From the NCBI RefSeq assembly GCF_024462775.1, contig NZ_JANGCE010000018.1, positions 1 through 64,000 on the forward strand: 64,000 nt of DNA, written 5' to 3'. This stretch comes from Butyricicoccus faecihominis (GTDB lineage: Bacteria; Bacillota; Clostridia; Oscillospirales; Butyricicoccaceae). This document shows, in pieces, positions 3,635-18,311 of this stretch. Made by a program: the position numbers and the translations under genes. The notes under the pieces were generated by a model that was given only the letters and a program-made list of their open reading frames with translations, was not told the origin of the DNA and searched no databases. Each line of letters starts with the position of its first letter. Position 1 is the stretch's first letter.

Positions 3635-6019
3635 ATGGACACCTTAATCGGCAAGGGCGAAAAACGGATCGACGCATATGATAAGGTCACCGGCAAGGGC
3701 CTGTACGCCAGTGATTTTGATAACCAGTTTCCGAATATGGCGCATATCAAGGCCAAGCGCAGCCCGTACGCGCACGCGGGCATCAAGCGGCTGGACACGA
3801 CGAAGGCAAAAGCGCTGGAGGGCGTACTGTACATCCTGACCGGGAATGAGCCCGGCATCGATTGGGATCAGTATCCCAAGGCATCCGTACTCGCGACGGA
3901 CCGCGCGCTTTGGGCGGGACAGACCATCGCGCTGGTCGCGGCCGAAACAGAGGAGATCGCCGAGCAGGCGGTCGAGCTGATCGAGGTCGACTACGAGGTG
4001 CTGCCGCACGTACTCAACTATGAAGAAGCGATGAAGCCTGATCCCGTCGCCGTGATCGACCCCGAATACGAGACCCGCGATCAGGGCTTTATGGACCGCC
4101 CGGCGGACCGCGCGACAAACCGCGTTTCCCCCAATGTCGTCGGCGCGTTTTATATGAACGCGGGCGATGTGGAACAAAAGCTGCAGGAAGCCGATATCAC
4201 GGAAGAGGGCGAATTCTGGGTCGGCAAAAAAACCGCAAGTCCGCTCGAATGCGCCAACGCCATCTGTCGCTATGATAACGACGGCGGCATTACCATGTGG
4301 TCCAACGGCGCGGGCGTGCACGGCGTGATCAAGCAGGGCATCTGCCGTATCCTCGGCATGCCGGAATCGCGCGTGCGCGTGATCCAGCCGTATATGGGCG
4401 GCTCGTTCGGCTCGCGCCTGAACCCCTACATCGAAATACTGACCGCGCTGATGTGCCTGAAGGCCAAACGCACCGTGCGTTTCCGCTTTTCCCGCAAGGA
4501 GGTGTTCTGCTCGGCGCCCTCCAACTGGCCGTGCCAGACCAAGGTAAAGCTCGGCGCGAAAAAGGACGGCACGATCATCGCCAACGATTACTATCTCTGC
4601 GAAGAGATCGGCGCGGCGCTGAACAACACGTTTTTCTCGGGCCGCCTGTCCTCCTCCGGCGCGGCGCCCGTGTACCGCTGGGCGGAAAAGGGCCAGCCCT
4701 CGAACATCCGCATGGATACTTACGCGGTCGCCACCAACACCGTGCCCGCCGCCGAATACCGCGGCCTCGGCTGCCCCGAAGCGGAGTTCGGCATCGAGTG
4801 TCTGGTCAACAAGCTGGCGGACGACCTCGGCATGAGCCCGGTCGAGATCCGCATGAAGAACATCATCGACGCGGGCGAGCGCGACTGCTACGGCGAGCTG
4901 ATCACCTCCTCCGGCCTTAAAAAGTGCCTGCAGGCGGTCGCGGACGCGGTCCGCGTGGAGGAAAAGCCCGAGCAGGATATGGGCGTTTGGAAAAAGGGCC
5001 GCGGCGTCGCGGTGGGCGGCAAACAGAATACGCCGCTTGGCCGTTCGGAAGCCGAGGTTTGGTACAATTCGGACGGCACGATCGAGCTGTTCATTTCGTG
5101 CGATGAAAACGGTATGGGCGTAACGACCGCCATGACCCAGATCGTCGCGAATGAATTCGGCGTGCCGATCACCGACGTCAAGACGACCAAGGGCGATACC
5201 GCCATCACGCCGTATGACAACTACTCCGCTTCCTCGCGCACGACCTATAACACCGGCAACGCGGTGCTCGCCGCCTGCCATGACTGCATCGATAAGCTGA
5301 AGGAAGAGATCGCGCGGCACTTTGGGCTGCATGTTTCCAAGGTGGAGATCGAGGGCAAAAAGGCGTATCTCAAGGGTTCGTATGTGCAGGAGGTCGATAT
5401 CCCGTCGCTGTTCGTGCCGGTCGGCATGTTCACACAGGGCAACTGGGGGCTGCAAAAGGGCTCGCCGGTCAAGGGACACGGCCTGTATTGCCCGGCGCCG
5501 ATCCACCAGTGGGACAAGAACGGCCTGTCCGACCGCGTTTGGAACTGGTTCCAATACTCGGCGGCCGCGGTCGAGGTGGCGGTCAACGAGGAGACCGGAC
5601 AGGTCAAGGTACTGAAGGTCGCCTCCTCCGCCGATACGGGCAATCCGATCAACCCCAAGCTGGTCGAAGGCCAGATCGAGGGCGGCGTGCACATGGCGAT
5701 CGGCTTCTCAACGATGGAAGAACACCTTTACAATGAACGCGGCGAGATCGCCAACTGCAATTTCAGCGATTACCGCCTGCCCGGCGTGCTCGACATGCCG
5801 AAGAACGATGATGTTTACGCCTTTATCAATCCCGACCCGCTGCCCGATGGACCGTTCGGCGCCAAGGGCATGGCGGAATCGATCACGATCCCGGTCGGCC
5901 CCGCGATCGCGGAAGCGATCTATCAGGCGGTCGGCGTGCGCGTCACCGGTTATCCGATGACGGCCGAGCGCATCCTCGCGCTGATACAGGAGAAGAAAGC
6001 CAAGGAGGCGAACCAGTGA
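3635..6019 (+). CDS. Xanthine dehydrogenase-family molybdopterin-binding subunit
   Basis: Large catalytic subunit (794 aa) of a molybdenum hydroxylase. Family members hydroxylate N-heterocycles or aldehydes using water and pass electrons to 2Fe-2S clusters and FAD, which are encoded here by the next two genes. Visible features are an N-terminal aldehyde oxidase/xanthine dehydrogenase a/b hammerhead region, GGSFGSR near residue 255 contacting the pterin, a GLGCPEAEF segment near 375, and GAKGMAE at 742-748, whose Glu748 matches the catalytic base of the family. An AAGGAGG site precedes the ATG. Order and overlaps (large, FeS, FAD) show one operon. Whether the substrate is xanthine, hypoxanthine, nicotinate or another heterocycle cannot be told. 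Confidence 0.92.
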   Translation: MDTLIGKGEKRIDAYDKVTGKGLYASDFDNQFPNMAHIKAKRSPYAHAGIKRLDTTKAKALEGVLYILTGNEPGIDWDQYPKASVLATDRALWAGQTIALVAAETEEIAEQAVELIEVDYEVLPHVLNYEEAMKPDPVAVIDPEYETRDQGFMDRPADRATNRVSPNVVGAFYMNAGDVEQKLQEADITEEGEFWVGKKTASPLECANAICRYDNDGGITMWSNGAGVHGVIKQGICRILGMPESRVRVIQPYMGGSFGSRLNPYIEILTALMCLKAKRTVRFRFSRKEVFCSAPSNWPCQTKVKLGAKKDGTIIANDYYLCEEIGAALNNTFFSGRLSSSGAAPVYRWAEKGQPSNIRMDTYAVATNTVPAAEYRGLGCPEAEFGIECLVNKLADDLGMSPVEIRMKNIIDAGERDCYGELITSSGLKKCLQAVADAVRVEEKPEQDMGVWKKGRGVAVGGKQNTPLGRSEAEVWYNSDGTIELFISCDENGMGVTTAMTQIVANEFGVPITDVKTTKGDTAITPYDNYSASSRTTYNTGNAVLAACHDCIDKLKEEIARHFGLHVSKVEIEGKKAYLKGSYVQEVDIPSLFVPVGMFTQGNWGLQKGSPVKGHGLYCPAPIHQWDKNGLSDRVWNWFQYSAAAVEVAVNEETGQVKVLKVASSADTGNPINPKLVEGQIEGGVHMAIGFSTMEEHLYNERGEIANCNFSDYRLPGVLDMPKNDDVYAFINPDPLPDGPFGAKGMAESITIPVGPAIAEAIYQAVGVRVTGYPMTAERILALIQEKKAKEANQ

Positions 6020-6528
6020 TGTACGAAGAGAAAATGCGGTTTGAACTTTCCGTCAACAAGAAAAAACGCGTGGTTTACGTTCATCCGTCGCTGACCCTGC
6101 TGGAAACGCTGCGCGACGAGCTGAACCTGACCGGCACCAAGCGCGGCTGCGACGATTCCAACTGCGGCGTGTGCACCGTGCTGATGGACGGCAAGGCGGT
6201 AAAAAGCTGTACGATGTTTATCCCGCAGGCCGCGGGCCATGAGATCACGACCATTGAGGGGCTGGAGGGCGAAGACGGCCTGCACCCGCTGCAGCAGGCT
6301 TTCATCGACCATTTTGCCGTGCAGTGCGGCTACTGCACGCCCGGCATGATCCTGACGGCCAAGGCCATCCTCGATGAAAACCCGAACGCCACAGAGGACG
6401 ATATCCGCGAGGGCCTGCACGGCAACCTGTGCCGCTGCACGGGCTATAAAAAGATCGTGGAAGCGATTGAAGCCGTGCGCGACGGCGACTACGGCGATTA
6501 CGCGGCGGAATGGAGGGAGACGAGATGA
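6019..6528 (+). CDS. Molybdenum hydroxylase 2Fe-2S subunit
   Basis: Small electron-transfer subunit of about 169 aa. It has the two expected cysteine sets: an N-terminal plant-ferredoxin-type cluster (CDDSNCGVC followed by a fourth Cys in KSC) and a C-terminal helical cluster (CGYC and LCRCTGY). It moves electrons from the molybdenum centre to the FAD subunit. I place the start at the ATG at 6019, whose first base overlaps the TGA of the large subunit and which has AAGGAGG about 10 bases upstream; a GTG three bases earlier is also open. Length fits the family. Confidence 0.92.
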
Positions 6529-7400
6529 GCATGCGGTTTGAAAAATACTTTCAGCCGAAGAGCGTAGAGGAATGCTGCGCGCTGCTGGGGGAATACGGCA
6601 AGAACGCGCGGCTGCTCGCGGGCGGCACCGATGTGGTGCCGCGCATCAAAATGAAGCTGTGGCAGCCGTCGGCGGTCATCGGCCTGATGGATATCCCGGA
6701 GTTGGACGCGATTGCCGTTTCCGAAACCGGGCTGACGCTGGGCGCCCGCGCGAACCTGCGCGAACTATCGCTTTCGCCCGCGCTGGCGGAGGATTATCAG
6801 GTGGTGCGCGAGGCGTGCGGTCACGTATCCTCCATGCAGGTGCGCAATATTGCGACCATTGGCGGCAACGCGTGCAACGCGTCGCCCTCGGCGGATGCGA
6901 TACACGGCCTGCTGCTGCATGACGCGGCCGTGGTCATCGCGGGCGCGGATGGCGCGCGTGAAATGCCGCTGTGCGATTTCTTCAAGGGCCCGGGCAAGAC
7001 CGATCTTGGCGAAACGGAAATGGTTGTGCGGTTTCAGATCAAAAAGCCCGCGGCGCATACCGGCGCGGCCTACAAAAAATACGCGATCCGCGGCGATTCG
7101 GATATTTCGATCGTCGGCGCGGGCGCGCGGCTGACGCTCGCGGAGGACGGCACGATCGCCGATGCGCGCGTAACGCTAGCATCGGTCGCGCCAACGCCGC
7201 TTCGCTGCCGCGAGGCGGAAGCGCTGCTTACCGGGCGACAGCCGGATGAGGCGCTGTTTGCCAAGGCGGCGGAGGAATGCGCCGCCCATATCGCTCCGAT
7301 CACGGATCAGCGCGCCACGCGCGAGTACCGCGTCCAAATGGTGCGCGTTTGGGTCCGCCACGCGCTGCAAGAAGCGTGCGAGCGCGCAAAAGCTCGCTGA
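6525..7400 (+). CDS. Molybdenum hydroxylase FAD-binding subunit
   Basis: FAD subunit of about 291 aa, family FAD_binding_5 plus the CO dehydrogenase flavoprotein C-terminal domain. The diagnostic LAGGTDVVPR motif near residue 31 and ATIGGNACNASPSAD near 110 contact FAD. It receives electrons from the 2Fe-2S subunit and passes them to NAD or another carrier. The ATG at 6525 overlaps the upstream TGA and follows GGAGG by about 8 bases; an ATG at 6510 lies before that ribosome site and is less likely. It closes the three-subunit enzyme set. Confidence 0.92.
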   Translation: MSMRFEKYFQPKSVEECCALLGEYGKNARLLAGGTDVVPRIKMKLWQPSAVIGLMDIPELDAIAVSETGLTLGARANLRELSLSPALAEDYQVVREACGHVSSMQVRNIATIGGNACNASPSADAIHGLLLHDAAVVIAGADGAREMPLCDFFKGPGKTDLGETEMVVRFQIKKPAAHTGAAYKKYAIRGDSDISIVGAGARLTLAEDGTIADARVTLASVAPTPLRCREAEALLTGRQPDEALFAKAAEECAAHIAPITDQRATREYRVQMVRVWVRHALQEACERAKAR

Positions 7401-7535
7401 AAACTGATTTCCGATTCGGGAGGGGCGGCAAGTAAAAACTTCCTTCCTCTCCACACTCTTTTTCTTCTTTTCTTCTTTTTTACCGCCTCTCTCGAAAGGA
7501 AATACCACTCCCTATTTGGAAATGAGGAACTGTCT
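7401..7535 (+). other. Pyrimidine-rich intergenic leader before the MBL-fold gene
   Basis: Between the FAD subunit and the MBL-fold gene lies a tract of almost pure C and T at about 7438-7496. It is bracketed by GAGGGGCGGCAA (from 7421) and TTACCGCCTCTC (from about 7484), which can pair with one wobble and one mismatch. No start codon or promoter box is convincing. It may be a long-looped RNA stem between operon parts. Function unknown. Confidence 0.35.
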
Positions 7536-8390
7536 ATGGAAATGTTGACGCCCAATGTCTATACCGAAACCAAAATCCGCGGCTGTAACCCGTCGATCGT
7601 TTTCACGAGCGAAGGCTCGGTGTTCATCGATACGGCGCAGTGGCTGTCCACGCTGCTGGAAATGCGCGAGTTTGCCAAAAAACGCGGCCCGATCAAGTAC
7701 TTAATCAATACCGAGGGCCATATCGACCACATCTTCGGCAACCACTGGTTCGCGGGAGAAAGCCTTGTGATCGGCCATGAAAAGCTAAATGAGATCTTTT
7801 GGACGGTCGCGGGCGATATCAGCGATTGCTACGATTACAGCGTCGACGTGCTGGAACGGCAGGACAAGGCGGCGCTGCCGCTCATGCCGAAGCGCGAGGA
7901 ATTTATCGTCAACCGGCCGCAGATCACCTTCCGCGAGCATATGACGCTGCACCTTGGCGATACCGTGTTTGAGCTTTACCATACGCCCGGCCATTCGACC
8001 AGCCAGCTTTGCGTGCACGTACCCAAGGAGCGCGTCGCCTTTGTGGGCGACACCCTGTTTTCCGGCTGCCAGACTTGGCTGCATTCGGCAGACATCGGCG
8101 CGCTCCTTCAGACGCTTGATTTTCTGGAAACGCTCGATGTGGATTATTTCGTGCCCGGTCACGGTCCTGTCGTGGATCGCTCCTACATCGCCGAGCAGCG
8201 CGCGTTCGTTTACGAATGGCTTTCTGCTGTCGGCAGCGGGATCGCGCGCGGCTGGGATATGGATACCTGCGTGAAAAACATCAGCTTCGCAGACCGTTAC
8301 CCGGTCGATATCGGACAGGAAGAAATGATGGAATACATCCAGCGCACCAACGTGATCCGCTGCTACAAATATCTGACGAATACCAAGTAA
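7536..8390 (+). CDS. MBL-fold metallo-hydrolase with altered first metal ligand
   Basis: Metallo-beta-lactamase-fold protein of 284 aa. The metal motif that normally reads HxHxDH appears as EGHIDH near residue 66-71, so the first His is Glu, while the second His and the DH pair remain. Later ligands are present: PGHS near 152, GDTLFSG near 172 and PGHGPV near 210. The fold usually hydrolyses thioesters, lactones or cyclic amides, or oxidises thiols. Lying between the hydroxylase and its maturation genes, it could hydrolyse a ring product of the hydroxylase, but this is guilt by association. A GAGGA site precedes the ATG. Confidence 0.8.
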   Translation: MEMLTPNVYTETKIRGCNPSIVFTSEGSVFIDTAQWLSTLLEMREFAKKRGPIKYLINTEGHIDHIFGNHWFAGESLVIGHEKLNEIFWTVAGDISDCYDYSVDVLERQDKAALPLMPKREEFIVNRPQITFREHMTLHLGDTVFELYHTPGHSTSQLCVHVPKERVAFVGDTLFSGCQTWLHSADIGALLQTLDFLETLDVDYFVPGHGPVVDRSYIAEQRAFVYEWLSAVGSGIARGWDMDTCVKNISFADRYPVDIGQEEMMEYIQRTNVIRCYKYLTNTK

Positions 8391-8399
8391 GTACGTTGG

Positions 8400-8434
8400 G
8401 CTGCTTCCCGCCGCGTGATGCGGCGGGAAGCAGC
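8400..8434 (+). terminator. GC-rich hairpin without T-run, 15-bp stem
   Basis: Arms at 8400-8414 and 8420-8434 are perfectly complementary around the 5-base loop GTGAT. No T-run follows, so it is not a standard intrinsic terminator. It could be an mRNA stability or partial-termination element separating the MBL gene from the cofactor genes. Confidence 0.5.
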
Positions 8435-8457
8435 CGCCGGGGGGAGGCCGGGAACCA

Positions 8458-8805
8458 ATGCTGGAAGCGCTATCTTTTGAGGGAACAACGAAGGTTTTGA
8501 ACAAAGGGGTCGATGTGGCGCTCGTGATCGAGCCGCCGGACGCGGAACAGGCGCTGCGCGCGGCAAAGATCTGCGGCGTGTGCGGCGTCTCCACGGCGGT
8601 GCTCAGCGTCACGAAAACAGACCCGGTGGACAGGCGAACGATCGCGCATTTCTGCCGGACGGCGGGGCGGCTGGTCTTTGCGGACCGCGCGCTGTACGAT
8701 GCGGCGGCATGCGCGCTGACAGAGCATACAAAGGTGCTGATCGCGCCCGACAAAAGCGAGAAGGCCTTTTCAGATACCGTATTTGCCGTGAAACGGCAGG
8801 GGTGA
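8458..8805 (+). CDS. Small hypothetical protein in the molybdenum hydroxylase cluster
   Basis: I do not recognise this protein of 115 aa. It is rich in Ala and Val, has two closely spaced cysteines (KICGVCGV near residue 41-48), and alternates hydrophobic strands and helices without a signal peptide or membrane segment, so it should be a small soluble cytoplasmic domain. A GGGGGGAGG sequence lies about 10 bases before the ATG. It ends four bases before xdhC, so it is likely part of the hydroxylase maturation operon. The CxxC pair could bind a metal or sulfur, which is speculation. Confidence 0.65.
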   Translation: MLEALSFEGTTKVLNKGVDVALVIEPPDAEQALRAAKICGVCGVSTAVLSVTKTDPVDRRTIAHFCRTAGRLVFADRALYDAAACALTEHTKVLIAPDKSEKAFSDTVFAVKRQG

Positions 8806-8809
8806 GCAT

Positions 8810-9625
8810 ATGAAACGAATCAAACAGGCGGTGCGCGAAATGTGCGCGAAAGGAGAACCCTTCGCGCTGGTCTCAATCCGCGAGGGCTCGGGTTCGATGC
8901 CGCGCCATCAGGGCGCGACCATGCTGGTGCGGGAGGACGGCGGCATCGAAGGCTCGGTGGGCGGCGGCGTGTTGGAAGCGCGGGCGATCGAGCGCGCCCG
9001 GCAGCTTATCGCCGAGGGCAAAAGCGGCGAAATGCCCTTTGACCTGTCCTCCGCCGACGCGGCGAACTCGGATATGATCTGCGGCGGTTCGGGCGTGCTG
9101 TCCATCCGGTTTTACGACGGGACGGAGCAACCGGCGCTGCAACGCGAACTGGCGGAGATAGACGACGGCAAACTGGTGATCTTCGGCGGCGGGCATATTG
9201 CAAGGCAGCTTGCCCGTATCGCGGATGTTTTGGAAATCCCTATCGTAGTCGTGGAAGATCGAAGCGAGTTCTGCTCGCCCGAACGGTTTCCGAGCGCGAA
9301 GCGCGTCATTGTCGAAACCTATGACAACATCCCGGAGGCGGCGCTGGGGGAAAAGGATATGGCGGTGATCGTCACGCGCGGCCATCTGGGCGACCGGGAG
9401 GCGCTCGTCTGGGCGCTGCGGACACGGGCGGGCTATATCGGGATGATCGGCTCCAAACGCAAGCGCGACCTGATGTATGAGAAGATGCGGGCGGATGGGA
9501 TTGCCGAAAGCGCCCTTGCGCGGGTGCATTCCCCGATCGGCCTGCCGATCGGCGCGCAAACGCCGGAAGAGATCGCGGTGTCCATCGCGGCCGAGCTCGT
9601 CGCGTTTCGGAACGGTCGCGCATGA
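8810..9625 (+). CDS. xdhC: XdhC/CoxI-family molybdenum hydroxylase maturation protein
   Basis: XdhC proteins bind molybdenum cofactor, protect it during sulfuration and insert it into xanthine dehydrogenase-type apoenzymes. This one is 271 aa. The N-terminal XdhC/CoxI domain includes GSMPRHQGATMLV near residue 29 and GSVGGGVLE near 50. The C-terminal Rossmann domain shows GGGHIARQLARIA near residue 125 and ends with the conserved IGSKRKRD and SPIGLPIGAQTPEEIAVSI regions typical of the family. It overlaps the next gene by four bases. Its place beside the hydroxylase fits a dedicated chaperone. Confidence 0.92.
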   Translation: MKRIKQAVREMCAKGEPFALVSIREGSGSMPRHQGATMLVREDGGIEGSVGGGVLEARAIERARQLIAEGKSGEMPFDLSSADAANSDMICGGSGVLSIRFYDGTEQPALQRELAEIDDGKLVIFGGGHIARQLARIADVLEIPIVVVEDRSEFCSPERFPSAKRVIVETYDNIPEAALGEKDMAVIVTRGHLGDREALVWALRTRAGYIGMIGSKRKRDLMYEKMRADGIAESALARVHSPIGLPIGAQTPEEIAVSIAAELVAFRNGRA

Positions 9626-10686
9626 CGGGGGCGGTCATACTCGCGGCGGGGCTGTCCCGCCGCATGGGGGCGTTCAAGCCCTTGCTGCCGCTGGGCGGCG
9701 GCACGCTGATCGAAAGCGCGGCGCGCCGTTTGCGAGAAGGCGGCGCCGCGCGTATCGTGGTCGTGACCGGCAGCCGGGCAAGGGATGTCGAGCGGGCGCT
9801 CGCGGGGATGGACCTGCGCTTTGCGCACAACCCCGCGTTCCGTGAAACACAGATGCTGGATTCCGCCAAGATCGGCCTGCGCGCGCTGGGGGAGTGCGAC
9901 GAGGTGTTTTTGCTTCCGGCGGACATCCCCCTGTTTTGCCCCAGCCTTCTGCAAACGCTCCGGCAGGCGCGGGCGCAAACCGGGGCGGACGCGGCGCATC
10001 CCCGCATGGAAGGCAGGAACGGACACCCGCTGCTGCTTGGGCCGCGCGCGGCGCGGGCGGTGCTCGCGCACGACGGGCGGGATGGCGTCAAGGGCGCGCT
10101 TGCGCCCCTTGCCGTCGAAGCCTGCCCGGTCGGCGATCCCGGCTGTCTGCTCGATGCGGATACCAAGGCGGATTACGAGCGCCTGCTGGCGTTTCGCGCC
10201 GAAAGTGTTCCGGCGGCGTATGAGATCGAAGCGCTGCACGACCGCTTCGGTTCGACCGAGGCGATCCGGCGGCATTGCCGCGCGGTCGAACGCCGGGCGC
10301 TTGCGCTGGCCGAAAGTCCGGCGTGCGCGCACCTTAATAAACGGCTGTTGGCGGCCGCGGCGCGCGTACACGACGCGGCAAGGACAAAGCCGCAGCACGC
10401 CGCGCGGCTGGCGCAGGCCCTGTTGGATTTGGGCTATGTCCGCGCCGCCGAATGCGTGTCCGTGCATATGGAGCTGCCGCCCGCTATGTGGGGTACGGTA
10501 TCCGAAGCCACGGTGCTGTATCTGGCGGATAAGCTGGTCATGGAGGACCGGGCGGCGACGCTGGACGAACGGTTTGCCCGGGCGGCGCGGCGATGCGCCG
10601 GAAACGAACAAGCGCTCTTGGCGGCGGCCTCGCGTCAGCGGGCCGCGGAGAGCATATGGAACCTGATAAGCGAGGTGCAACAATGA
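9622..10686 (+). CDS. MobA/MocA-like NTP transferase fused to an HD domain
   Basis: The N-terminal half (about residues 1-195) is a nucleotidyltransferase like MocA, which makes molybdopterin cytosine dinucleotide: LAAGLSRRMGAFKPLLPLGG is the nucleotide-binding loop, LLPADIPLF near 97 carries the metal-binding Asp, and GRNGHPLLL follows. The C-terminal part (about 210-354) looks like an HD phosphohydrolase domain, with HCRAVE, a VHDAART His-Asp pair, SVHME and ADKLV in order. Such fused proteins occur in molybdenum hydroxylase clusters of anaerobes. The HD substrate is unknown; it might trim or recycle the nucleotide. It is coupled to both neighbours by four-base overlaps. Length 354 aa. Confidence 0.85.
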   Translation: MTGAVILAAGLSRRMGAFKPLLPLGGGTLIESAARRLREGGAARIVVVTGSRARDVERALAGMDLRFAHNPAFRETQMLDSAKIGLRALGECDEVFLLPADIPLFCPSLLQTLRQARAQTGADAAHPRMEGRNGHPLLLGPRAARAVLAHDGRDGVKGALAPLAVEACPVGDPGCLLDADTKADYERLLAFRAESVPAAYEIEALHDRFGSTEAIRRHCRAVERRALALAESPACAHLNKRLLAAAARVHDAARTKPQHAARLAQALLDLGYVRAAECVSVHMELPPAMWGTVSEATVLYLADKLVMEDRAATLDERFARAARRCAGNEQALLAAASRQRAAESIWNLISEVQQ

Positions 10687-11693
10687 AAACCGTTTTGGTG
10701 GAAAACGCGGTCGGCACGGTGCTCGCGCACGACCTGACCCAAATCATCCCGGGCGAGTTCAAGGGGAGCCGCTTTCAAAAGGGCCATGTGGTAGAGGAAT
10801 CGGATATTCCGGTGCTGCTCTCCATGGGCAAGAAGCACTTGTTCGTGCTCGAACTCGGCGCGGACGACGTGCACGAGGACGACGCGGCAAGGCGCATTGC
10901 GGCAGCCACGGCCGGGGCTAATATCGACCTTCTGCCAAAGGGCGAGGGCAAGGTGGAGCTGCGCGCGGCGTGCGACGGGCTGCTGAAAATCGACGTGGAC
11001 AAGCTGGAAGCCCTGATCGAGGACGACGAAGTGATGTTCGCGGCCATTCACGAAAACGTCATGGTGCGAAAGGGCGAGCAGCTCGCGGGCACGCGCGTGA
11101 TCCCGCTGTTTGTCAAGGAAGCGGTCGTGCGGCGGGCGGAATCGGTCGGCCCGTTCGTCGAGGTGAAACCGTTGCGACCGCTCAAGGTCGGTCTGGTGAC
11201 GACCGGCAGCGAGATTTACCACCACCTGATCGAGGACAAATTCGGCGACATTTTGCGCCGCAAATTCGAGGCCCTCGGCAGCACGGTGTTTGAGCAGCTG
11301 TTCGCAGACGATGACGATCAGATGATCGCGGACTGCATCGGCAGTTTGCAAGCGCGGGGCGCGGATTTAATCGCGGTAACGGGCGGCATGTCGGTCGACC
11401 CGGACGACCGCACGCCGGCGGGCATCCGCCGCGCGGGGGTGCAAATCGAGACCTACGGCGCGCCCATCCTGCCCGGCGCCATGTTCCTGCTCGGTTATCT
11501 GGGGGAAATTCCGGTGGTCGGTCTGCCGGGCTGCGTGATGTACCACAAGGTGAGCGTGTTCGATTTGATCGTGCCCCGTCTGCTCGCGGGCGAACGGGTA
11601 ACGCGGAAAGCGGTAAAAAAACTGGGCCACGGCGGCCTGTGCCGGAACTGCCAAACCTGCACGTATCCAAACTGCGGCTTTGGCAAGGGCTGA
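10683..11693 (+). CDS. MoeA/MogA-like molybdopterin-binding protein with cysteine-rich tail
   Basis: Protein of about 336 aa related to MoeA-type molybdopterin-binding proteins used in molybdenum insertion or hydroxylase maturation. The MoCF/Mog fold spans about residues 160-300, with GLVTTGSEIYH, VTGGMSVDPDDRTPAGI and LPGAMFLLGYL matching the molybdopterin-binding motifs. The C-terminus carries a Cys cluster, CRNCQTCTYPNCGFG, which could hold a metal or iron-sulfur centre. The start at 10683 overlaps the upstream TGA; an in-frame ATG further upstream lies inside the previous gene and is rejected. MoaA follows after 17 bases. Confidence 0.88.
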   Translation: MKTVLVENAVGTVLAHDLTQIIPGEFKGSRFQKGHVVEESDIPVLLSMGKKHLFVLELGADDVHEDDAARRIAAATAGANIDLLPKGEGKVELRAACDGLLKIDVDKLEALIEDDEVMFAAIHENVMVRKGEQLAGTRVIPLFVKEAVVRRAESVGPFVEVKPLRPLKVGLVTTGSEIYHHLIEDKFGDILRRKFEALGSTVFEQLFADDDDQMIADCIGSLQARGADLIAVTGGMSVDPDDRTPAGIRRAGVQIETYGAPILPGAMFLLGYLGEIPVVGLPGCVMYHKVSVFDLIVPRLLAGERVTRKAVKKLGHGGLCRNCQTCTYPNCGFGKG

Positions 11694-11710
11694 GAAAAGG
11701 AGGAAACGCG

Positions 11711-12661
11711 ATGCTTGACCGGTTTGGGCGCGAGATCAATTATCTGCGTCTGTCGGTGACCGAGCGGTGCAATCTGCGCTGTATCTATTGCCGCGAGGGG
11801 AACGATTGCTTCACGGCGGAAAACGAGCTGACGGCGGGGGAGCTTTCCCGCATCGTTTCGCAGATGGCGGCGCTTGGCGTGCAAAAGGTGCGCGTGACGG
11901 GCGGCGAGCCGTTGGTGCGGCAGGATCTGGAACAGATCATCGCGGATATCGCGCGGCATCCCACGGTGCGCGACCTGTGTATGACCACGAACGCGCAGGG
12001 GCTGGAGGGCCGGATACGCGGCCTGCACCGCGCGGGGCTCATGCGCCTCAACATCAGTCTGGATTCACTGTGCAAGGAGCGGTACAGCAAAATGACGCGC
12101 GGCGGCCATTTGAGCGATGTGCTGGGCGGCATCGACGCGGCGCTCGCGTGCGGCATGAACCTGATCAAGGTGAACACCGTGCTGGTGCGCGGCGAGAACG
12201 ACGGCGAGATCGATGATTTCATTCGGCTGGCAAAGGAATACCCGATCGATGTGCGGTTCATCGAGCTGATGCCAATCGGCAGGTTGGGCGAGGACGGCAC
12301 GCGCCGCATCCCGAACGCCGAGGTGCTGGCCGCGTATCCCGCGCTGAAAAGGCTCGCGCCGCGCTGCCCCTGTCAGCCGAGCGAGGACTACGCGGGCGAG
12401 GGCTTTCGCGGGCGCGTCGGGTTTATCAGCCCGGTGTCGCATAAATTTTGCGCGGTGTGCAACCGCGTCCGCCTGACGAGCGACGGCCATCTGCGCATGT
12501 GTCTGGGCGACAACACCGAGACCGACCTGCGCCCGGCGCTGGATGGAACGGACCAAACACTGGGCGATACCATACGCGCGGCAATATGGAACAAACCGCG
12601 CGGGCACCATTTTGAAACGCTGTTTCATTCGCAGCGGGCGATGAATCGGATAGGAGGATGA
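11711..12661 (+). CDS. moaA: GTP 3',8-cyclase MoaA, radical SAM
   Basis: MoaA makes 3',8-cyclo-GTP, the first step of molybdopterin synthesis, with MoaC completing cPMP. The protein is about 316 aa. CNLRCIYC near residue 19-26 binds the radical SAM 4Fe-4S cluster, and the C-terminal cluster uses CAVCNRVRL and a later MCLG Cys near residues 253-270. It ends in the Gly-Gly pair needed in MoaA. The ATG at 11711 has AAAGGAGGAA about 7 bases upstream; earlier in-frame starts lie in the previous gene. No moaC, moaD or moaE is seen in the window. Confidence 0.95.
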   Translation: MLDRFGREINYLRLSVTERCNLRCIYCREGNDCFTAENELTAGELSRIVSQMAALGVQKVRVTGGEPLVRQDLEQIIADIARHPTVRDLCMTTNAQGLEGRIRGLHRAGLMRLNISLDSLCKERYSKMTRGGHLSDVLGGIDAALACGMNLIKVNTVLVRGENDGEIDDFIRLAKEYPIDVRFIELMPIGRLGEDGTRRIPNAEVLAAYPALKRLAPRCPCQPSEDYAGEGFRGRVGFISPVSHKFCAVCNRVRLTSDGHLRMCLGDNTETDLRPALDGTDQTLGDTIRAAIWNKPRGHHFETLFHSQRAMNRIGG

Positions 12662-13119
12662 GCGCTATGGCAACCGTTACGGCGGTCAATATCAGCAAGC
12701 AGAAGGGCACGGTCAAGCACCCGGTGGCAGAAGGACTGTTGAAGATCGATCACGGTATTGTGGGCGATTCGCACGCAGGCAACTGGCACCGGCAGATCAG
12801 CCTGCTCGCGCAGGAGAGCATCGATAAAATGACGGCGCTCGGCGTACCGGGGCTGACGCCGGGCAAATTCGCGGAAAACCTGACCACGGAGGGGATCGTG
12901 CTGCATACGCTGCCGGTCGGCACGCTGCTGCTGATCGGTCCTTGCCTGACCGAGGTGACGCAGATCGGCAAGCAGTGCCATCAGCACTGCGAGATCTACC
13001 AAAAGATCGGCCGGTGCATCATGCCGACCGAAGGCATCTTCGTCAAGGTGCTTTCCGAAGGCGCGGTGCGCGCGGGGGATTCCATTCGCGTGGTCACGCG
13101 CGAGGAGGCGGGCTTATGA
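12658..13119 (+). CDS. MOSC domain-containing protein
   Basis: MOSC domains resemble the C-terminal domain of molybdenum cofactor sulfurase and handle Mo-bound sulfur or cofactor transfer. This stand-alone form is 153 aa, with DHGIVGDSHAGNWHRQISLL near residues 31-50, GKFAENLTTEGI near 75, and a Cys-rich GKQCHQHCEIYQKIGRC segment near 107-123 whose Cys residues could carry sulfur. It overlaps moaA and mogA by four bases each. In this operon it probably assists maturation of the hydroxylase cofactor. A second ATG nine bases downstream is possible. Confidence 0.9.
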   Translation: MSAMATVTAVNISKQKGTVKHPVAEGLLKIDHGIVGDSHAGNWHRQISLLAQESIDKMTALGVPGLTPGKFAENLTTEGIVLHTLPVGTLLLIGPCLTEVTQIGKQCHQHCEIYQKIGRCIMPTEGIFVKVLSEGAVRAGDSIRVVTREEAGL

Positions 13120-13610
13120 AAATACGAACCGCCGTGCTGACGGTCAGCGACAAGGGCAGTCAGGGCCTGCGCGAGGACAAAAGCGGTCCGGCGATCGTGG
13201 AGACGCTGGGCGAGCTGGCCGAGATCGTTTGGACCGGCGTCGTGCCCGATGAACGGGAGCGGATCGCGCAAACGCTGCGAGAGCTCGCGGACGCGGGCGG
13301 CGCGGATTTGATCCTGACCACCGGCGGCACCGGCCTTGCCCCGCGCGACGTCACACCCGAAGCGACCTGCGACGCGGGTCAGCGCATGGTGCCCGGCATC
13401 GCGGAAGCGATGCGCGCCGAAAGCCTGCGCATCACGCCGCGCGGCATGCTTTCTCGCGGGGTCGCGGTCACGCGCGGGCGCACGCTGATCGTCAACCTGC
13501 CGGGCAGCCCCAAGGCGGCGCGTGAATGCCTTGCGGTGCTGCTGCCCGCGCTGCCGCACGGGATCGAGATTTTGTGCGGCAAGGCCGGCGAGTGCGGCGC
13601 GCCGGCGTAA
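13116..13610 (+). CDS. mog: Molybdopterin adenylyltransferase, MogA/MoaB family
   Basis: MogA adenylates molybdopterin before molybdenum insertion. The protein is about 164 aa, a single MoCF fold: AVLTVSDKGSQGLREDKSG near the start, TTGGTGLAPRDVTPEA near residues 66-81 for pterin binding, and LIVNLPGSPKAARECL near 125-140. The ATG at 13116 overlaps the MOSC stop and follows GAGGAGG; the long open frame upstream lies inside the MOSC gene and is not used. It closes the MoaA-MOSC-MogA block. Confidence 0.94.
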   Translation: MKIRTAVLTVSDKGSQGLREDKSGPAIVETLGELAEIVWTGVVPDERERIAQTLRELADAGGADLILTTGGTGLAPRDVTPEATCDAGQRMVPGIAEAMRAESLRITPRGMLSRGVAVTRGRTLIVNLPGSPKAARECLAVLLPALPHGIEILCGKAGECGAPA

Positions 13611-13623
13611 AGGGGGCGGGCAT

Positions 13624-14076
13624 ATGGAACACGGCGGCTTGCGGTATTCCTTAAAGATCCGGCTGCGGGCAAGCGAAACCTTTTTCGGCCCGGGTCTGGC
13701 CGAGCTGCTGCTCCTCGTTGGCGAGAGCCACTCGCTGAACGTGGCCGCGCACACGATGGGCATGGCGTACAGCAAGGCGTGGCGCATCGTCAAGGCCGCC
13801 GAGGCCGAGCTGCGGTATCCGTTACTCGAACGCAAGGTGGGCGGCGTGGACGGCGGCGGCAGCGAGGTAACGCCGCGCGGGCGTGATTTGATCACGCGGT
13901 ATCAGGCGTTTGCAGCGGCGCTGGCAGAAGAGGCGGATCGGCTGTTCGACCGGTATTTCAGCGGCCTTGATCAAACAACAGAGGGGGAGACAGATGGAAA
14001 CAGGAGCGAAACGGCTGCCCAAACGGCGGCTGCTGCATCAGGAGGTCAGCCAGTACATCCGGCAGGCGATCCTTAG
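13624..14076 (+). CDS. ModE-like winged-helix regulator (stand-alone DNA-binding domain)
   Basis: Small DNA-binding protein of about 150 aa resembling the N-terminal LysR-type winged helix of ModE: LLLLVGESHSLNVAAHTMGM with AYSKAWRIVKAAEAELRYPLLER near residues 24-72, then a ranked C-terminal helix. There is no molbindin domain, so it cannot sense molybdate the way full ModE does. GGGGGCGG lies just before the ATG. The last 30 or so residues are low-complexity and run 83 bases into the next gene, an unusually long overlap that suggests translational coupling. Likely a regulator of the molybdenum genes, by context. Confidence 0.8.
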   Translation: MEHGGLRYSLKIRLRASETFFGPGLAELLLLVGESHSLNVAAHTMGMAYSKAWRIVKAAEAELRYPLLERKVGGVDGGGSEVTPRGRDLITRYQAFAAALAEEADRLFDRYFSGLDQTTEGETDGNRSETAAQTAAAASGGQPVHPAGDP

Positions 14077-14656
14077 AGGCGAGCTGAAGCCGGGCGACCG
14101 CATCGTAGAAACCAAAATGGCGCAGCTGCTTGGCGTTTCACAGGCCCCCGTGCGGGAGGCGATACGGGAGCTGGAATTCAGCGGATTGGTGGAGCAAAAG
14201 CCTTATTTTGGAACCTATGTCAAGCAGATCACCATGCAGGATATGGAGAACTTTTACCGCGTGCGCGGCGCGCTGGAAAAGCTGGGCGCGCATCAGGCCT
14301 GCGAAAACATGACCGACGAGCAGCTTGCCGGCATCCAGCGCGCGATGACGGAAATGGAGCGCGCGGGCGCAAAGCAGGATAACGACCGCTATGTGCAAAT
14401 GGACGCGCTGTTTCACGATCATATCATTGCCGCTTCGGGCAACAGCCTGCTGTGCAAACTGTGGGAGCAATGCAATATCAAATCCTGGCTGTTCGTCGGC
14501 ACGGCGCTGACACAGCGGAATTTAAGCTATTTGGCGGCCCGGCATCGAAAGATTTTTGAACGCTTGCAGGCGCGCGACGCAAGCGGGCTGGAAGCGGCGG
14601 TGCAGGATCACTTGGAGCAGCTATTATCGATGATGCTGGAAAACGGGCAAAGCTGA
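13994..14656 (+). CDS. GntR-family transcriptional regulator with FCD domain
   Basis: Regulator of about 220 aa. The N-terminal winged helix spans residues 15-80 (KPGDRIVETKMAQLLGVSQ, APVREAIRELEFSGLV), and the C-terminal FCD ligand domain has the usual FHDHIIAASGN and HRKIFERLQARDASG blocks; its Asp/His residues often bind a metal and a small carboxylate. The start at 13994 is supported by GAGGGGGAGA, and the DNA-binding domain would be cut by any later start. It precedes the 3-hydroxyacyl-CoA dehydrogenase gene by 16 bases, so it may control that gene or the whole operon. Confidence 0.88.
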   Translation: METGAKRLPKRRLLHQEVSQYIRQAILRGELKPGDRIVETKMAQLLGVSQAPVREAIRELEFSGLVEQKPYFGTYVKQITMQDMENFYRVRGALEKLGAHQACENMTDEQLAGIQRAMTEMERAGAKQDNDRYVQMDALFHDHIIAASGNSLLCKLWEQCNIKSWLFVGTALTQRNLSYLAARHRKIFERLQARDASGLEAAVQDHLEQLLSMMLENGQS

Positions 14657-14672
14657 AAGGGGAAACGAACAT

Positions 14673-15623
14673 ATGTTAAATACAAAACCGCAAAAGATCG
14701 CTGTGATTGGCACGGGTATGATGGGCATGAGCCTTACCGCGCTTTTCACAGGAAACGGATACGATACCACGGTGCTTGCCACCAAGGCCGCCTCCGCCGA
14801 ACGCGGCAGGCGCAGCTATGATGAAATGTACGCCGTGCTGGAAGGGCGGGGGCTGGTAAGCCGGGCGCAGGCCGCGGCCTGCGCCGGCAATCTGCATTTT
14901 ACCCTGTCCTATGTCGACCTACAGGATGTGGACGCTGTTTTTGAATGCGCGGTAGAGGACAAGGCGGTAAAATTTGCGATCTATCAGCAGATCGAGGCGC
15001 ACTGCAAACGCTTTCGCTTCGTCGCCTCCACCACCTCCGCCATGGCGCCTGAAACGCTGTGCGAGGGGTTGCAAAGCTGCCCGGGCAAGCTGGTCGTCGC
15101 TCACCCGTTCAATCCGCCGCATCTGGTGCCTTTTGTCGAGCTGGTGAAATGCGCGTGCACCGAGGAGGCCGCTGCAAGCGCCGCGTATGAAATACTGGAA
15201 AGCTGCGGCCGCAAGGTATGTGTGATGAAAAAGAGCGCGCCCGGCTTTATCGCCAACCGCTTACAGCACGCGCTGCTGCGCGAGGCGATCTACATGGTCG
15301 AACAGGGGCTTGCCGATCCGCGCGATATTGATAAGGCGCTGATGTACAGCTTCATGCCGCGCTATACCTCGGTCGGCCTGTTCGAGCATCAGGACGCGGC
15401 GGGGCTGGATATGGTGCAAAGCATCGAAGACCATCTGCTGCGCGATCTGAGCGACGCCAAGGAAACGCCCGCTTTCGTGCGCGAGCGCGTGGCGCGCGGC
15501 GACCTTGGACAAAAGACCGGCAGGGGCACCTACGACTGGACCGACGCTTCGAGAGCCGATTTTAAAGCGCGCGCCGCCGCGCCGTACTGGCAGTATTTCA
15601 ACTGGGATCTGCCGCAAGTATAA
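14673..15623 (+). CDS. 3-hydroxyacyl-CoA dehydrogenase-family NAD-dependent enzyme
   Basis: Protein of 316 aa with an N-terminal Rossmann domain (VIGTGMMGMSLTALF near residues 11-25) and the 3HCDH C-terminal domain. The catalytic His sits in VVAHPFNPPHLVPFVE near residues 135-150, and FIANRLQHALLREA follows near 193. The family oxidises 3-hydroxyacyl-CoA, 3-hydroxybutyryl-CoA or related hydroxy acids with NAD. In a molybdenum hydroxylase operon it may act on a ring-opened product; this is inference. A strong intrinsic terminator follows at once, so the operon may end here and modABC may be separate. Confidence 0.85.
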   Translation: MLNTKPQKIAVIGTGMMGMSLTALFTGNGYDTTVLATKAASAERGRRSYDEMYAVLEGRGLVSRAQAAACAGNLHFTLSYVDLQDVDAVFECAVEDKAVKFAIYQQIEAHCKRFRFVASTTSAMAPETLCEGLQSCPGKLVVAHPFNPPHLVPFVELVKCACTEEAAASAAYEILESCGRKVCVMKKSAPGFIANRLQHALLREAIYMVEQGLADPRDIDKALMYSFMPRYTSVGLFEHQDAAGLDMVQSIEDHLLRDLSDAKETPAFVRERVARGDLGQKTGRGTYDWTDASRADFKARAAAPYWQYFNWDLPQV

Positions 15624-15630
15624 TAAGCCG

Positions 15631-15657
15631 AAAATGGGCTTTGAAAAGCCCATTTTT
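15631..15657 (+). terminator. Intrinsic terminator after the 3HCDH gene
   Basis: Arms 15631-15641 and 15646-15656 are perfectly complementary around TGAA, and T residues end the stem. It separates the hydroxylase/cofactor operon from modABC. Confidence 0.9.
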
Positions 15658-15708
15658 GAGGCGTGCGTTATCCTTGATCGGCTACAACGATTGTGAGGAG
15701 AAAACAAC

Positions 15709-16557
15709 ATGAACGATAAAGGGAAACGAATGCTGTGCGTCATGGCCGCCGCCGGGCTGCTCGCGGGCGGGCTTGCAGGCTGTGGGAACGGCGGACCGGC
15801 TGAAACGAAAAAGGAAGCGCCCCACGCAAATGAAACGGTAGAGCTGACCGTATTCGCCGCCGCTTCCATGACGGAAACGCTGACCGAGCTGGCGGAAAGC
15901 TACAAGGCCGTCGCGCCCAACGTGAAGCTGACGTTCAATTTCGATTCGTCCGGCACGCTGAAAACCCAGATTGAGGAGGGGGCCGACTGCGACCTGTTCA
16001 TCTCGGCGGCGCAAAAGCAGATGAACCAGCTCGACGCGTCCAAGGACGCGGCGGGCAATCCGGACGGCCTTGGTTTGATTGACGCCGCGACGCGCGTCGA
16101 TCTGCTGGAAAACAAGGTCGCGCTGGTCGTGCCCGAAGGCAACCCGGCGGGCATACGGTCGTTTCAGGATATCGGCGGCAAATGCGATTTGATCGCGCTC
16201 GGCAACGACGACGTACCGGTCGGTCAGTATTCAGCGGAGATTCTGACGGGACTCGGCCTGCTGGATGCGCTCGAAAGCGAAAATAAGATCACCTACGGTT
16301 CCAATGTGAAGGAAGTCACCACGCAGGTGGCCGAGGGCTCGGTCGATTGCGGCATCGTCTATGCGACCGACGCGTTTTCCGCGGGGCTGACCGTGGTAGA
16401 TCAGGCGACAAAGGATATGTGCAAGCAGGTGGTTTACCCCGCGGCTGTGCTCAAAGCCGCGCCGCACCCGGATGAGGCGCGGGCATTTTTAGATTACTTG
16501 CAGTCCGATGCCGCGATAAAAGTCTTTGAAGCGGTCGGCTTTGCCAAAGCAGGCTAA
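15709..16557 (+). CDS. modA: Molybdate ABC transporter substrate-binding lipoprotein
   Basis: ModA binds molybdate or tungstate outside the membrane. The protein is 282 aa, with a lipoprotein signal ending in the lipobox LAGC near residue 25 and a charged linker. The mature part has VFAAASMTETLTELAESYK near 47 and the oxyanion-site residues in NFDSSGTLKTQIEEGADCDLF near 77-97, then VDCGIVYATDAFSAGLTVV near 220. GAGGAGAAAAC precedes the ATG. It is first in modABC, directly downstream of the molybdenum cofactor genes, so supply and use of molybdenum are grouped. Confidence 0.95.
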   Translation: MNDKGKRMLCVMAAAGLLAGGLAGCGNGGPAETKKEAPHANETVELTVFAAASMTETLTELAESYKAVAPNVKLTFNFDSSGTLKTQIEEGADCDLFISAAQKQMNQLDASKDAAGNPDGLGLIDAATRVDLLENKVALVVPEGNPAGIRSFQDIGGKCDLIALGNDDVPVGQYSAEILTGLGLLDALESENKITYGSNVKEVTTQVAEGSVDCGIVYATDAFSAGLTVVDQATKDMCKQVVYPAAVLKAAPHPDEARAFLDYLQSDAAIKVFEAVGFAKAG

Positions 16558-16580
16558 ATGGAAAAGGAGGGACACGCGCC

Positions 16581-17264
16581 GTGGATTGGTATCCGCTTTT
16601 TAATTCGCTTCGCATTGCGCTGATCGCGACCGTGCTCGTGTTTTTTACGGGCATTTTTGCGGCGTGGTATATCGCAAAGCTGCCGCGGCTGGTCAAGGGC
16701 GCGCTCGATGTGGTGCTGACGCTGCCGCTCGTGCTGCCGCCTACCGTGGTCGGTTATTTCCTGCTGTGCCTGTTCGGCGCGAAGCGGCCCGTCGGCCTAT
16801 GGCTGATGGATACGTTCGGCATCAAGGTGCCGATGACGTGGTACAGCGGAATCTTCGCGGCGGCGGTCGTCGCGTTTCCGCTCATGTACCGCACGGCGCG
16901 CGGCGCGTTTGAAGGCTTCGACGACACGCTTCGCTACGCGGCGCAGACACTGGGCCTTTCCGGCAGCTATATTTTTTGGCGCGTGACCATGCCTGCGTGC
17001 CGTCAGGGCATTTTGGCGGGCGCGGTGCTTTCGTTTGCGCGGGCGCTGGGCGAATACGGCGCGACCAGCATGATCGCGGGCTACACCCCGGGCAAGACCG
17101 CGACCATTTCCACCACGGTCTATCAGCTATGGCGCACGGATCAGGAAGCGTTGGCATTTCGGTGGGTGCTGGTCAATTTAGCGATCTCGGCCGTTGTTTT
17201 GCTGACGGTAAACCTGCTGGAACGGCGGGAAAACCCAAAACGGCGGGCGGGAGCAGAGGGGTGA
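16581..17264 (+). CDS. modB: Molybdate ABC transporter permease
   Basis: ModB of 227 aa with about five membrane helices and the EAA-type loop near residues 135-165 (ARALGEYGATSMIAGYTPGKT), which docks onto ModC. The first part LRIALIATVLVFFTGIFAAWYIAKLPR is typical of ModB. Translation begins at GTG 16581, with AAGGAGG about 10 bases upstream. It ends six bases before modC. Confidence 0.95.
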   Translation: MDWYPLFNSLRIALIATVLVFFTGIFAAWYIAKLPRLVKGALDVVLTLPLVLPPTVVGYFLLCLFGAKRPVGLWLMDTFGIKVPMTWYSGIFAAAVVAFPLMYRTARGAFEGFDDTLRYAAQTLGLSGSYIFWRVTMPACRQGILAGAVLSFARALGEYGATSMIAGYTPGKTATISTTVYQLWRTDQEALAFRWVLVNLAISAVVLLTVNLLERRENPKRRAGAEG

Positions 17265-17270
17265 AAAGCA

Positions 17271-18311
17271 ATGCTCATGGTGGATATTCAGAAAGCCTTT
17301 GGCTCGTTCCGGTTGGACGTGTCGTTCACGGCGGAAAAGGAAACGATCGGCCTGCTGGGCGCTTCTGGCTGCGGCAAAAGTATGACGCTGCGGTGCATCG
17401 CGGGCATCGTCACGCCGGACAGCGGCAAGATCGTGTTGGACGGGCAAACGCTGTTTGATTCCGAGCGGGGCATCGATCTGCCGCCGCAGAAGCGGCGCGT
17501 CGGCCTGCTGTTCCAGAATTACGCGCTGTTCCCCAATATGACGGTGGAGCAAAACATCCTGACAGGGCTGCGGCGGAGCGGTCTGGCGCAGCACGCAAAG
17601 CGCGTTCGCGTCGCGGAGGCAGTGGAACGGTTACAGCTCGGCGGCTTAGAGCGCCGCCGCCCGCACCAGCTTTCGGGCGGGCAGCAGCAGCGCGCCGCGC
17701 TGGCGCGCATTCTGGTATCCGAGCCGCGTATCCTGATGCTGGACGAGCCGTTTTCCGCCTTGGATAGCTTTCTCCGCTGGCAAACCGAGCGCGAGGTCCT
17801 GCGTGTGCTCGAACAGTTTAACGGCCCGGCGCTGTTCGTTTCCCACAACCGCGATGAGATCTACCGGCTTTGCGATAAGGTAGCGGTGTACGATCGCGGC
17901 CGCATCGATGCGTACTGTGAAAAGTGGGCGCTGTTCCAAAGCCCGCATACGCGCGCGGCGGCACTTTTGACCGGCTGCAAAAACATTGCGGACGCATACC
18001 CGTCCGGTGAGAACGCGGTGACGGTACCCGCGTGGAATTTGACCCTGCGGGCGGCGGCGCCCATGGCGGGCGATGTTTCCGCGGTGGGAATCCGCGCCCA
18101 CTTCTTTCGGCCCGGCGGGACGGAAAACGCGTTTGCCTGCCGCGTGGAGCAGGTGATCGAAAGCCCGTTTGAGGTGCGCGTGCTGGTCAGGCCAAAAGGC
18201 GCTTCGCAGTCCCTCTGCTGGATTCTGAACAAAGCGGAATACGCCGCGCTGCCAAACCGGGAAAGCCTTACGCTGTCCGTTTCACCAAGCGACATTTTGC
18301 CACTGCGATAA
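17271..18311 (+). CDS. modC: Molybdate ABC transporter ATP-binding protein
   Basis: ModC of 346 aa. Walker A GASGCGKSM near residue 27-35 (Met where Thr is usual), Q-loop FQNYALFPNMTV near 81, signature LSGGQQQR near 130 and Walker B ILMLDEPFSALD near 151-162. The C-terminal part (about 250-346) resembles a molybdate-binding TOBE/mop region, which in ModC can sense molybdate. Its stop codon TAA directly abuts the terminator hairpin of the structured repeat, so the repeat lies in the modC 3' end. Confidence 0.94.
   Translation: MLMVDIQKAFGSFRLDVSFTAEKETIGLLGASGCGKSMTLRCIAGIVTPDSGKIVLDGQTLFDSERGIDLPPQKRRVGLLFQNYALFPNMTVEQNILTGLRRSGLAQHAKRVRVAEAVERLQLGGLERRRPHQLSGGQQQRAALARILVSEPRILMLDEPFSALDSFLRWQTEREVLRVLEQFNGPALFVSHNRDEIYRLCDKVAVYDRGRIDAYCEKWALFQSPHTRAAALLTGCKNIADAYPSGENAVTVPAWNLTLRAAAPMAGDVSAVGIRAHFFRPGGTENAFACRVEQVIESPFEVRVLVRPKGASQSLCWILNKAEYAALPNRESLTLSVSPSDILPLR

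Follow-up and report, generated by a model that had tools for sequence, protein, structure and literature searches.

A MOSC-domain protein as candidate molybdopterin synthase in Butyricicoccus faecihominis and related genomes without MoaE

How does a bacterium complete its molybdenum cofactor (Moco) when an otherwise nearly self-contained cofactor gene island lacks the genes for molybdopterin (MPT) synthase? This question is raised by the stretch of Butyricicoccus faecihominis DNA analysed here, bases 1-64000 of contig C10 (the window), which belongs to a 3.69 Mb genome in 56 contigs that is 96.9% complete. A preliminary description of the sequence had listed an importer, a three-subunit molybdenum hydroxylase and a series of maturation, cofactor and molybdate transport genes ending with ModABC, and Pfam and NCBIfam scans of the window open reading frames (ORFs) recovered these genes in the listed order, all on the plus strand. 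It had also noted that MoaC, MoaD and MoaE are missing, and indeed no Pfam MoaC, MoaE or ThiS domain occurs in the scanned island ORFs and genome searches place none on C10. Molybdopterin is usually presented as the product of a single shared pathway. We propose, with a probability of roughly 0.58, that the MOSC-domain protein encoded at 12658-13119 is the MPT synthase of this bacterium and replaces the missing MoaD/MoaE pair, a reading suggested by gene content, the failure to find MoaE genome-wide, mutual exclusivity with canonical MoaE, the operon slot, gene fusions and residue conservation.

The preliminary description offered two explanations for the missing genes, namely that other loci supply them or that an unusual route is used, and a search of the genome for all three divides these explanations between different steps of the pathway. 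A moaC gene is present on another contig (G000:C5:78373-78777), near a GntR regulator, a pyridoxal 5'-phosphate (PLP) enzyme and a second hydroxylase, so that the MoaC step is supplied from elsewhere and calls for no unusual route. In contrast, MoaE had no match anywhere in the genome with either PF02391, which detected MoaE in 11 of 14 control genomes, or a profile built on the divergent form of MoaE described below. The only gene matching PF02597 (ThiS/MoaD family) encodes a protein with a C-terminal Gly-Gly and neighbours a ThiF-family gene and ORFs of the size of ThiG and ThiH; judging only from this apparent thiamine operon context, it is probably ThiS. For the MPT-synthase step, the suggestion of an unusual route is therefore the one that the data support, although no replacement had been named.

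The distribution of the two proteins was followed in an order set of 247 genomes and a phylum set of 348 genomes, taking matches to the MoaC/MOSC model as the starting set and recognising MOSC with profile A1, which contains MOSC only (27 rows, all of which match PF03473). Canonical MoaE was found in none of the 247 order genomes. PF02391 produced eight matches there, seven of them above cut-off and all seven of a divergent short type; the eighth, a minus-strand match in G196 that missed the cut-off at 20.6 bits, is antisense to a plus-strand ORF, 512 amino acids (aa) long, whose product reads as a TrpB-like PLP enzyme, and it was left out of the count. That MoaE might have been overlooked by a weak profile was also rejected, since a profile of the divergent type finds the same 7 of 247 genomes. 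The MoaC/MOSC model is matched by 47 order genomes, and MOSC is present in all 40 of those that lack an above-cut-off MoaE. In the phylum set the model is matched by 248 of 348 genomes, with MoaE above cut-off in 42, which divide by bit score into 24 canonical (83-142) and 18 divergent (29-40); the sequences read comprised four canonical (L036-L039) and three divergent (G285, G299, G446). Matches to A1 split cleanly, 217 genomes having E 4.6e-19 or better and 13 having 1.1e-10 or worse (to 2.5e-5). These 13, all of them canonical-MoaE genomes, were counted as lacking MOSC; in the order set, G097, with a 53.9-bit MOSC-like match only, was likewise counted as without it. On this basis MOSC occurs in 0/24 genomes with canonical MoaE, 15/18 with divergent MoaE and 202/206 with no MoaE, or by family in 0/12, 10/11 and 67/67, respectively. 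Because the same lack recurs across the order and phylum sets, the absence of MoaE is no assembly accident. MoaD, too, is seemingly unneeded alongside MOSC, given that PF02597 has no match in 11 of the 40 MOSC-positive, MoaE-negative order genomes; over all 47 model-matching order genomes it is unmatched in 16, the 31 positives including G058 and G083 even though these fall below cut-off.

The position of MOSC in the operon is informative because MoaC produces the substrate, and MogA consumes the product, of the MPT-synthase step. MOSC is in most cases a neighbour of moaA, moaC or mogA, and the most frequent gene order is moaA-moaC-MOSC-mogA, with exceptions. Across the loci of 67 genomes, MOSC stands alone in 40 and is joined to a neighbour as MOSC-MogA in 20, MoaC-MOSC in 6 and MOSC-MoaC in 1, a count that includes loci picked because the match looked fused. 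When moaA-centred loci from MOSC-positive genomes were chosen regardless of fusion (n=49), MOSC was present in 39, of which 11 carry it fused (8 to MogA, 3 to MoaC); it is present in 0/27 moaA-centred loci from canonical or divergent-only genomes. Moreover, the slot appears to be exchangeable. Three related genomes (G070, G153 and G226) possess a moa operon but no MOSC; in two of them a divergent MoaE gene lies directly after mogA (L045 and L047), and in the third it is fused to MogA (L046). Congeners of G070 (G044, G093, G104) and of G153 (G177, G225) have MOSC and no MoaE.

The short divergent MoaE-like family, represented by profile A2, was noted at L045:5984-6454 on the plus strand, L046:5067-6053 and L047:5409-5804 on the minus strand, L040-L042, L050 and L005-L008. 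Lysines of the LK motif and of the PIWKKE segment are catalytic in MoaE; the divergent proteins end before the canonical PIWKKE segment, retain the lysine of the LK motif and follow it with an invariant cysteine (10/10 rows). Five of the seven order genomes with divergent MoaE have no PF02597 match. A comparison with solved structures returned only ribosomal S3 (E 0.091), which was taken as chance. More tentatively, and at somewhat less than even odds in our judgement, the single MOSC protein may represent a second, unrelated kind of MPT synthase that works without MoaD/MoaE in most cofactor-making members of the phylum, with the shortened, cysteine-bearing MoaE-like protein, which has no linked MoaD, as a third kind able to take its slot.

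K20, D37, H39, R45, E73, N74 and K105 are kept in all 68 MOSC sequences, and C107, C111 and C120 in 66 of 68 each. The nearest solved protein is YiiM (profile E 8.8e-4), for which a positively charged cavity has been proposed to bind Moco, with an invariant reactive cysteine modelled near the metal and R55, N87, Q115 and C120 among the residues placed on Moco (PMC5818509). In the profile alignment C107 of the window protein aligns with the invariant YiiM cysteine, and by hand alignment R45, N74 and Q102 appear to be counterparts of YiiM R55, N87 and Q115. C111 and C120 would be suited to a persulfide relay; in one solved YiiM, too, the C120 column is occupied by a cysteine. The window protein is 153 aa long versus 221-246 aa in solved YiiM, a difference that bears on the extra C-terminal alpha bundle of the latter. 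A single-sequence AlphaFold2 model was too poor to judge the fold (mean predicted local distance difference test score 40.5). No relatives were confirmed in viral contigs, where a pattern search gave 43 matches.

A route can be drawn from these observations in which the chemistry, the sulfur donor, the substrate and the roles of the neighbouring genes are all inferred. The island would make Moco and load it into the catabolic hydroxylase. Cyclic pyranopterin monophosphate (cPMP) would be made by MoaA from the island and MoaC from contig C5, and would be bound by MOSC in a cavity equivalent to the proposed Moco site of YiiM. C107, C111 and C120 would receive persulfide sulfur, the likely donor being a cysteine desulfurase acting without MoaD, and MOSC would transfer two sulfurs to form the dithiolene. 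MogA would then adenylate the product, molybdenum imported by ModABC would be inserted by the MoeA-like protein of the island or by another MoeA, and the nucleoside triphosphate (NTP) transferase together with XdhC would finish the cofactor and load it.

Several observations weigh against assigning the MPT-synthase step to MOSC. Its exclusivity holds for canonical MoaE only, since MOSC co-occurs with the divergent MoaE-like gene in 15/18 phylum genomes and 3/7 order genomes, and in 13 of the 24 canonical-MoaE genomes a different MOSC protein is matched, with weak E-values. Four genomes (G323, G478, G503 and G530) match the MoaC/MOSC model and have neither MoaE nor a strong MOSC, probably as a result of assembly gaps because these assemblies are fragmented (150-450 contigs each). 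MOSC is not within about 3.5 kb of moaA in 10 of the 49 MOSC-positive loci. Among published genomes, the relatives of Dehalobacter CF and DCA have two MOSC genes, one of which is absent from CF and DCA themselves (PMC4751268), and Geobacter sulfurreducens has moaE plus a mosC of unspecified type (PMC2700814). The statistics call for similar caution, as the Fisher tests (9e-29 by genome, 2e-14 by family) both ignore relatedness. A MoaA tree was consulted, comprising 104 rows from 105 loci (L063 was dropped because its MoaA is split) and covering part of the 248 genomes. A set of 80 genomes was hand-picked, where possible with a single representative of each family, and included all 24 canonical, 8 of the 18 divergent and 48 MOSC genomes. 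On this tree MOSC requires 6 changes, and there are 4 independent pairs on supported branches or 6 on the best tree. In random pairings MoaE differs in the direction opposite to MOSC in a mean of 2.6 pairs, in the same direction in none, and shows no difference in 1.4. With so few pairs the sign test, at p 0.25, could not have reached 0.05. Furthermore, the MoaA proteins of the MOSC-less G070, G153, G226 and G097 form one clade, so these operons may go back to one cassette that was transferred. Independent swaps are few: by counts the pattern is strong, but the number of independent events is modest, and tree-corrected support for it is weak.

Of the competing explanations, the one with most in its favour has MOSC acting after MPT, as a Moco carrier, a sulfurase or a YiiM-like enzyme, with an unrecognised protein serving as MPT synthase. 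Such a late role is suited by the Moco-binding YiiM model with its cysteine near the metal (PMC5818509), which also counts against a synthase, and is favoured by the weak profile similarity of MOSC to YiiM. We nevertheless consider it unlikely, because a post-MPT role does not predict that MOSC should be absent from all 24 canonical-MoaE genomes, that it should be fused to MoaC (7/67 genomes; 3/39 loci not selected for fusion), or that a MoaE-like gene should appear in its slot. Nor is MOSC tied to enzymes of the xanthine-oxidase family: PF20256, the large-subunit family, is unmatched in 4 of the 40 MOSC-positive, MoaE-negative order genomes and in 2 more MOSC-positive genomes carrying divergent MoaE, while G070 has the reverse combination, a xanthine-oxidase-family enzyme without MOSC. 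A sulfurase special to these enzymes was rejected on the same grounds as a general role for MOSC.

If MOSC were instead the sulfur-carrier part only, in the manner of MoaD, a second, MoaE-like partner would be expected. A sulfur-carrier function has been predicted for the MOSC domain (Anantharaman and Aravind 2002, cited in PMC4751268), and the 11/40 genomes without a PF02597 match fit this explanation as well; however, no other moa-operon gene was seen to track MOSC in the loci read, where named query genes were sought unsystematically, and we regard it as improbable. Least credible of all is that MoaE and MoaD are present in the genome and were missed, through an assembly gap or divergence, or that ThiS and ThiF of the thiamine operon serve in their place. 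The assembly is indeed incomplete (96.9%, 56 contigs), and genes for a ThiS-like protein with a Gly-Gly end and a ThiF-like protein do exist, but this would have to be reconciled with the count of 0/247 for canonical MoaE, with a dedicated divergent profile yielding the same 7 genomes, and with the lack of any PF02597 match in 16/47 model-matching order genomes.

The remaining island genes are given with MOSC in Table 1.

Table 1. Features of the molybdenum hydroxylase island in the window, with the matches on which each assignment is based.
Feature	Position	Strand	Evidence
ATP-binding cassette (ABC) importer, ribose/xylose/allose type	ATPase 76-1569; permeases 1587-2594, 2591-3607	+	NCBIfam, all below family cut-offs
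Molybdenum hydroxylase (xanthine-oxidase family), large subunit	3635-6019	+	PF20256, PF02738, PF01315
Hydroxylase 2Fe-2S subunit	6016-6528	+	PF01799, PF00111
Hydroxylase FAD subunit	6510-7400	+	PF00941, PF03450
MBL-fold hydrolase	7536-8390	+	PF00753
115-aa ORF, weak lone transketolase C-terminal domain	8458-8805	+	PF02780, 24.9 bits (cut-off 25.9)
XdhC-family maturation factor	8810-9625	+	NF045664, 295.2 bits (cut-off 350); PF13478
DVU_1551-family NTP transferase	9622-10686	+	NF045665, 309.6 bits (cut-off 315), whole-length match
MoeA-like molybdopterin-binding protein without MoeA_N, Cys-rich C-terminus	10683-11693	+	PF00994 only
MoaA	ORF 11639-12661	+	TIGR02666, 338.8 bits, above cut-off
MOSC-domain protein, candidate MPT synthase replacement	12658-13119	+	PF03473, 46.9 bits (cut-off 22.7); profile A1, 1.8e-66
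MogA	13116-13610	+	PF00994; TIGR00177 above cut-off; NF006932, 150.4 bits (cut-off 158)
ModE/LysR-type helix-turn-helix protein	ORF 13522-14076, likely start Met near 13624	+	PF00126
GntR-FCD regulator	13910-14656	+	PF07729, PF00392
3-hydroxyacyl-CoA-dehydrogenase-like enzyme (3HCDH)	14673-15623	+	PF02737, PF00725; nearest solved 4om8
ModA	15709-16557	+	ModA/ModB models TIGR01256, TIGR02141 above cut-off
ModB	16581-17264	+	ModA/ModB models TIGR01256, TIGR02141 above cut-off
ModC	17271-18311	+	Context; PhnT2 best (217.2 bits), ModC 209.9 bits, both below cut-off

The genes from xdhC to mogA are closely packed. MoaA, whose translation ends in Gly-Gly, more likely starts at the Met at 11711, and the likely start of MOSC is the Met at 12667, which is preceded by AGGAGG at the moaA stop; the MOSC stop overlaps the mogA start codon as ATGA. 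A Moco riboswitch was not found, no RNA family reaching the gathering threshold in the window. Three of the original assignments were only partly borne out. The supposed fusion of an NTP transferase with an HD domain matches the DVU_1551 model over its whole length, slightly below cut-off, and Pfam recognised only NTP_transf_3 in it, so that its HD half was not confirmed; the MoeA-like protein has a MoCF_biosynth match but lacks the MoeA_N domain; and ModA and ModB exceed their model cut-offs whereas ModC is assigned from context. Relatives of the MoeA-like protein occur both in MOSC-type and in MoaE-type operons (L045, L047). The 115-aa ORF between the MBL gene and xdhC is an addition to the original list; a relative of it adjoins an MBL gene in locus L012, and among solved structures it matches the split transketolase 6yaj (E 0.0016). 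The binding protein of the importer may sit past the contig edge, as contig C10 starts at window base 1.

The hydroxylase has the large, 2Fe-2S and FAD subunit domains of the xanthine-oxidase family and is 92% identical to that of two Agathobaculum metagenome-assembled genomes. The nearest solved protein to its large subunit is the alpha subunit of 4-hydroxybenzoyl-CoA reductase (1rm6, E 4.7e-89), but the NCBIfam equivalogs for 4-hydroxybenzoyl-CoA reductase and xanthine dehydrogenase gave only 415.1 of 994.55 and 385 of 780 bits, and with scores well short of all the listed NCBIfam cut-offs the subunit gives no basis for inferring a substrate. The preliminary idea that the linked MBL-fold and 3-hydroxyacyl-CoA-dehydrogenase-like genes break down the oxidised ring product is plausible, these genes being kept together with the hydroxylase on the related contig L012; the MBL protein had no solved relative at 1e-6. 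L012 repeats the window order with a sugar-type binding protein, an ATPase, two permease-sized ORFs, hydroxylase, MBL, transketolase-C-like ORF, NTP transferase, GntR regulator and dehydrogenase, without the cofactor genes that are interspersed in the window. Beyond these come an ORF whose product looks like a PLP enzyme and another hydroxylase, which shares 73% identity with the one on C5. Since this second hydroxylase comes after a window-type hydroxylase operon, a single pathway is suggested, and both enzymes probably belong to the same catabolic route. A second hydroxylase accompanied by a PLP enzyme like D-cysteine desulfhydrase or CuyA was recorded at L003:10257-16292 (searched) and L012:18063-22184 (the PLP enzyme read by eye); the C5 PLP enzyme is nearest to the D-cysteate sulfo-lyase and D-cysteine desulfhydrase models, below their cut-offs.

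A synthase role for MOSC is not a new suggestion. In 2016 a paper on Dehalobacter reported that MoaD and MoaE are missing and that the cluster of some strains contains two MOSC proteins, and guessed in one sentence that these act as MPT synthase (PMC4751268). Related gaps have been noted elsewhere: Geobacter metallireducens lacks moaE, leaving its nitrate reductase unexplained (PMC2700814), the gene for the sulfur-adding step was reported missing from acetogens (PMC5039349), and MOSC genes lie in the moa clusters of Caldithrix and Dehalogenimonas (PMC5317091, PMC13390414). The idea is not raised in the available portions of PMC6147048 and PMC1779556, and our literature search, which most subscription papers lay outside, found no experimental test of it. 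The idea was therefore already in print, whereas the evidence from distribution, slot swaps and fusions is new as far as these searches show. If MOSC does carry out the sulfur step, it would close an old gap and bring a new kind of sulfur-transfer chemistry to a core cofactor; genomes seemingly incomplete for cofactor synthesis would prove to be complete.

Compared with known systems, the window protein shares its setting with the Dehalobacter MOSC proteins, which also lie in a moa cluster where MoaD and MoaE were not found and for which the same function was guessed, although evidence from distribution or fusions was not seen in the accessible part of that paper (PMC4751268). The NF011069 (PRK14499) MoaC/MOSC fusion is related through its MOSC half, to which the window protein aligns at 204.7 bits over model positions 161-307 only, below the 457-bit cut-off for the fusion; the window protein has no MoaC half, MoaC being a separate gene on another contig. 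With YiiM, YcbX and mARC it shares the MOSC domain, the family-wide cysteine and, probably, the residues of the Moco cavity, yet proteins of the window type are only ∼150 aa long, carry the additional conserved C111 and C120, and are encoded in moa operons, frequently as fusions with MoaC or MogA. Finally, in contrast to the MoaD/MoaE MPT synthase, MOSC is an unrelated domain that apparently acts as a single protein and is found in genomes without detectable MoaD, but it would occupy the same step from cPMP to MPT, between MoaC and MogA.

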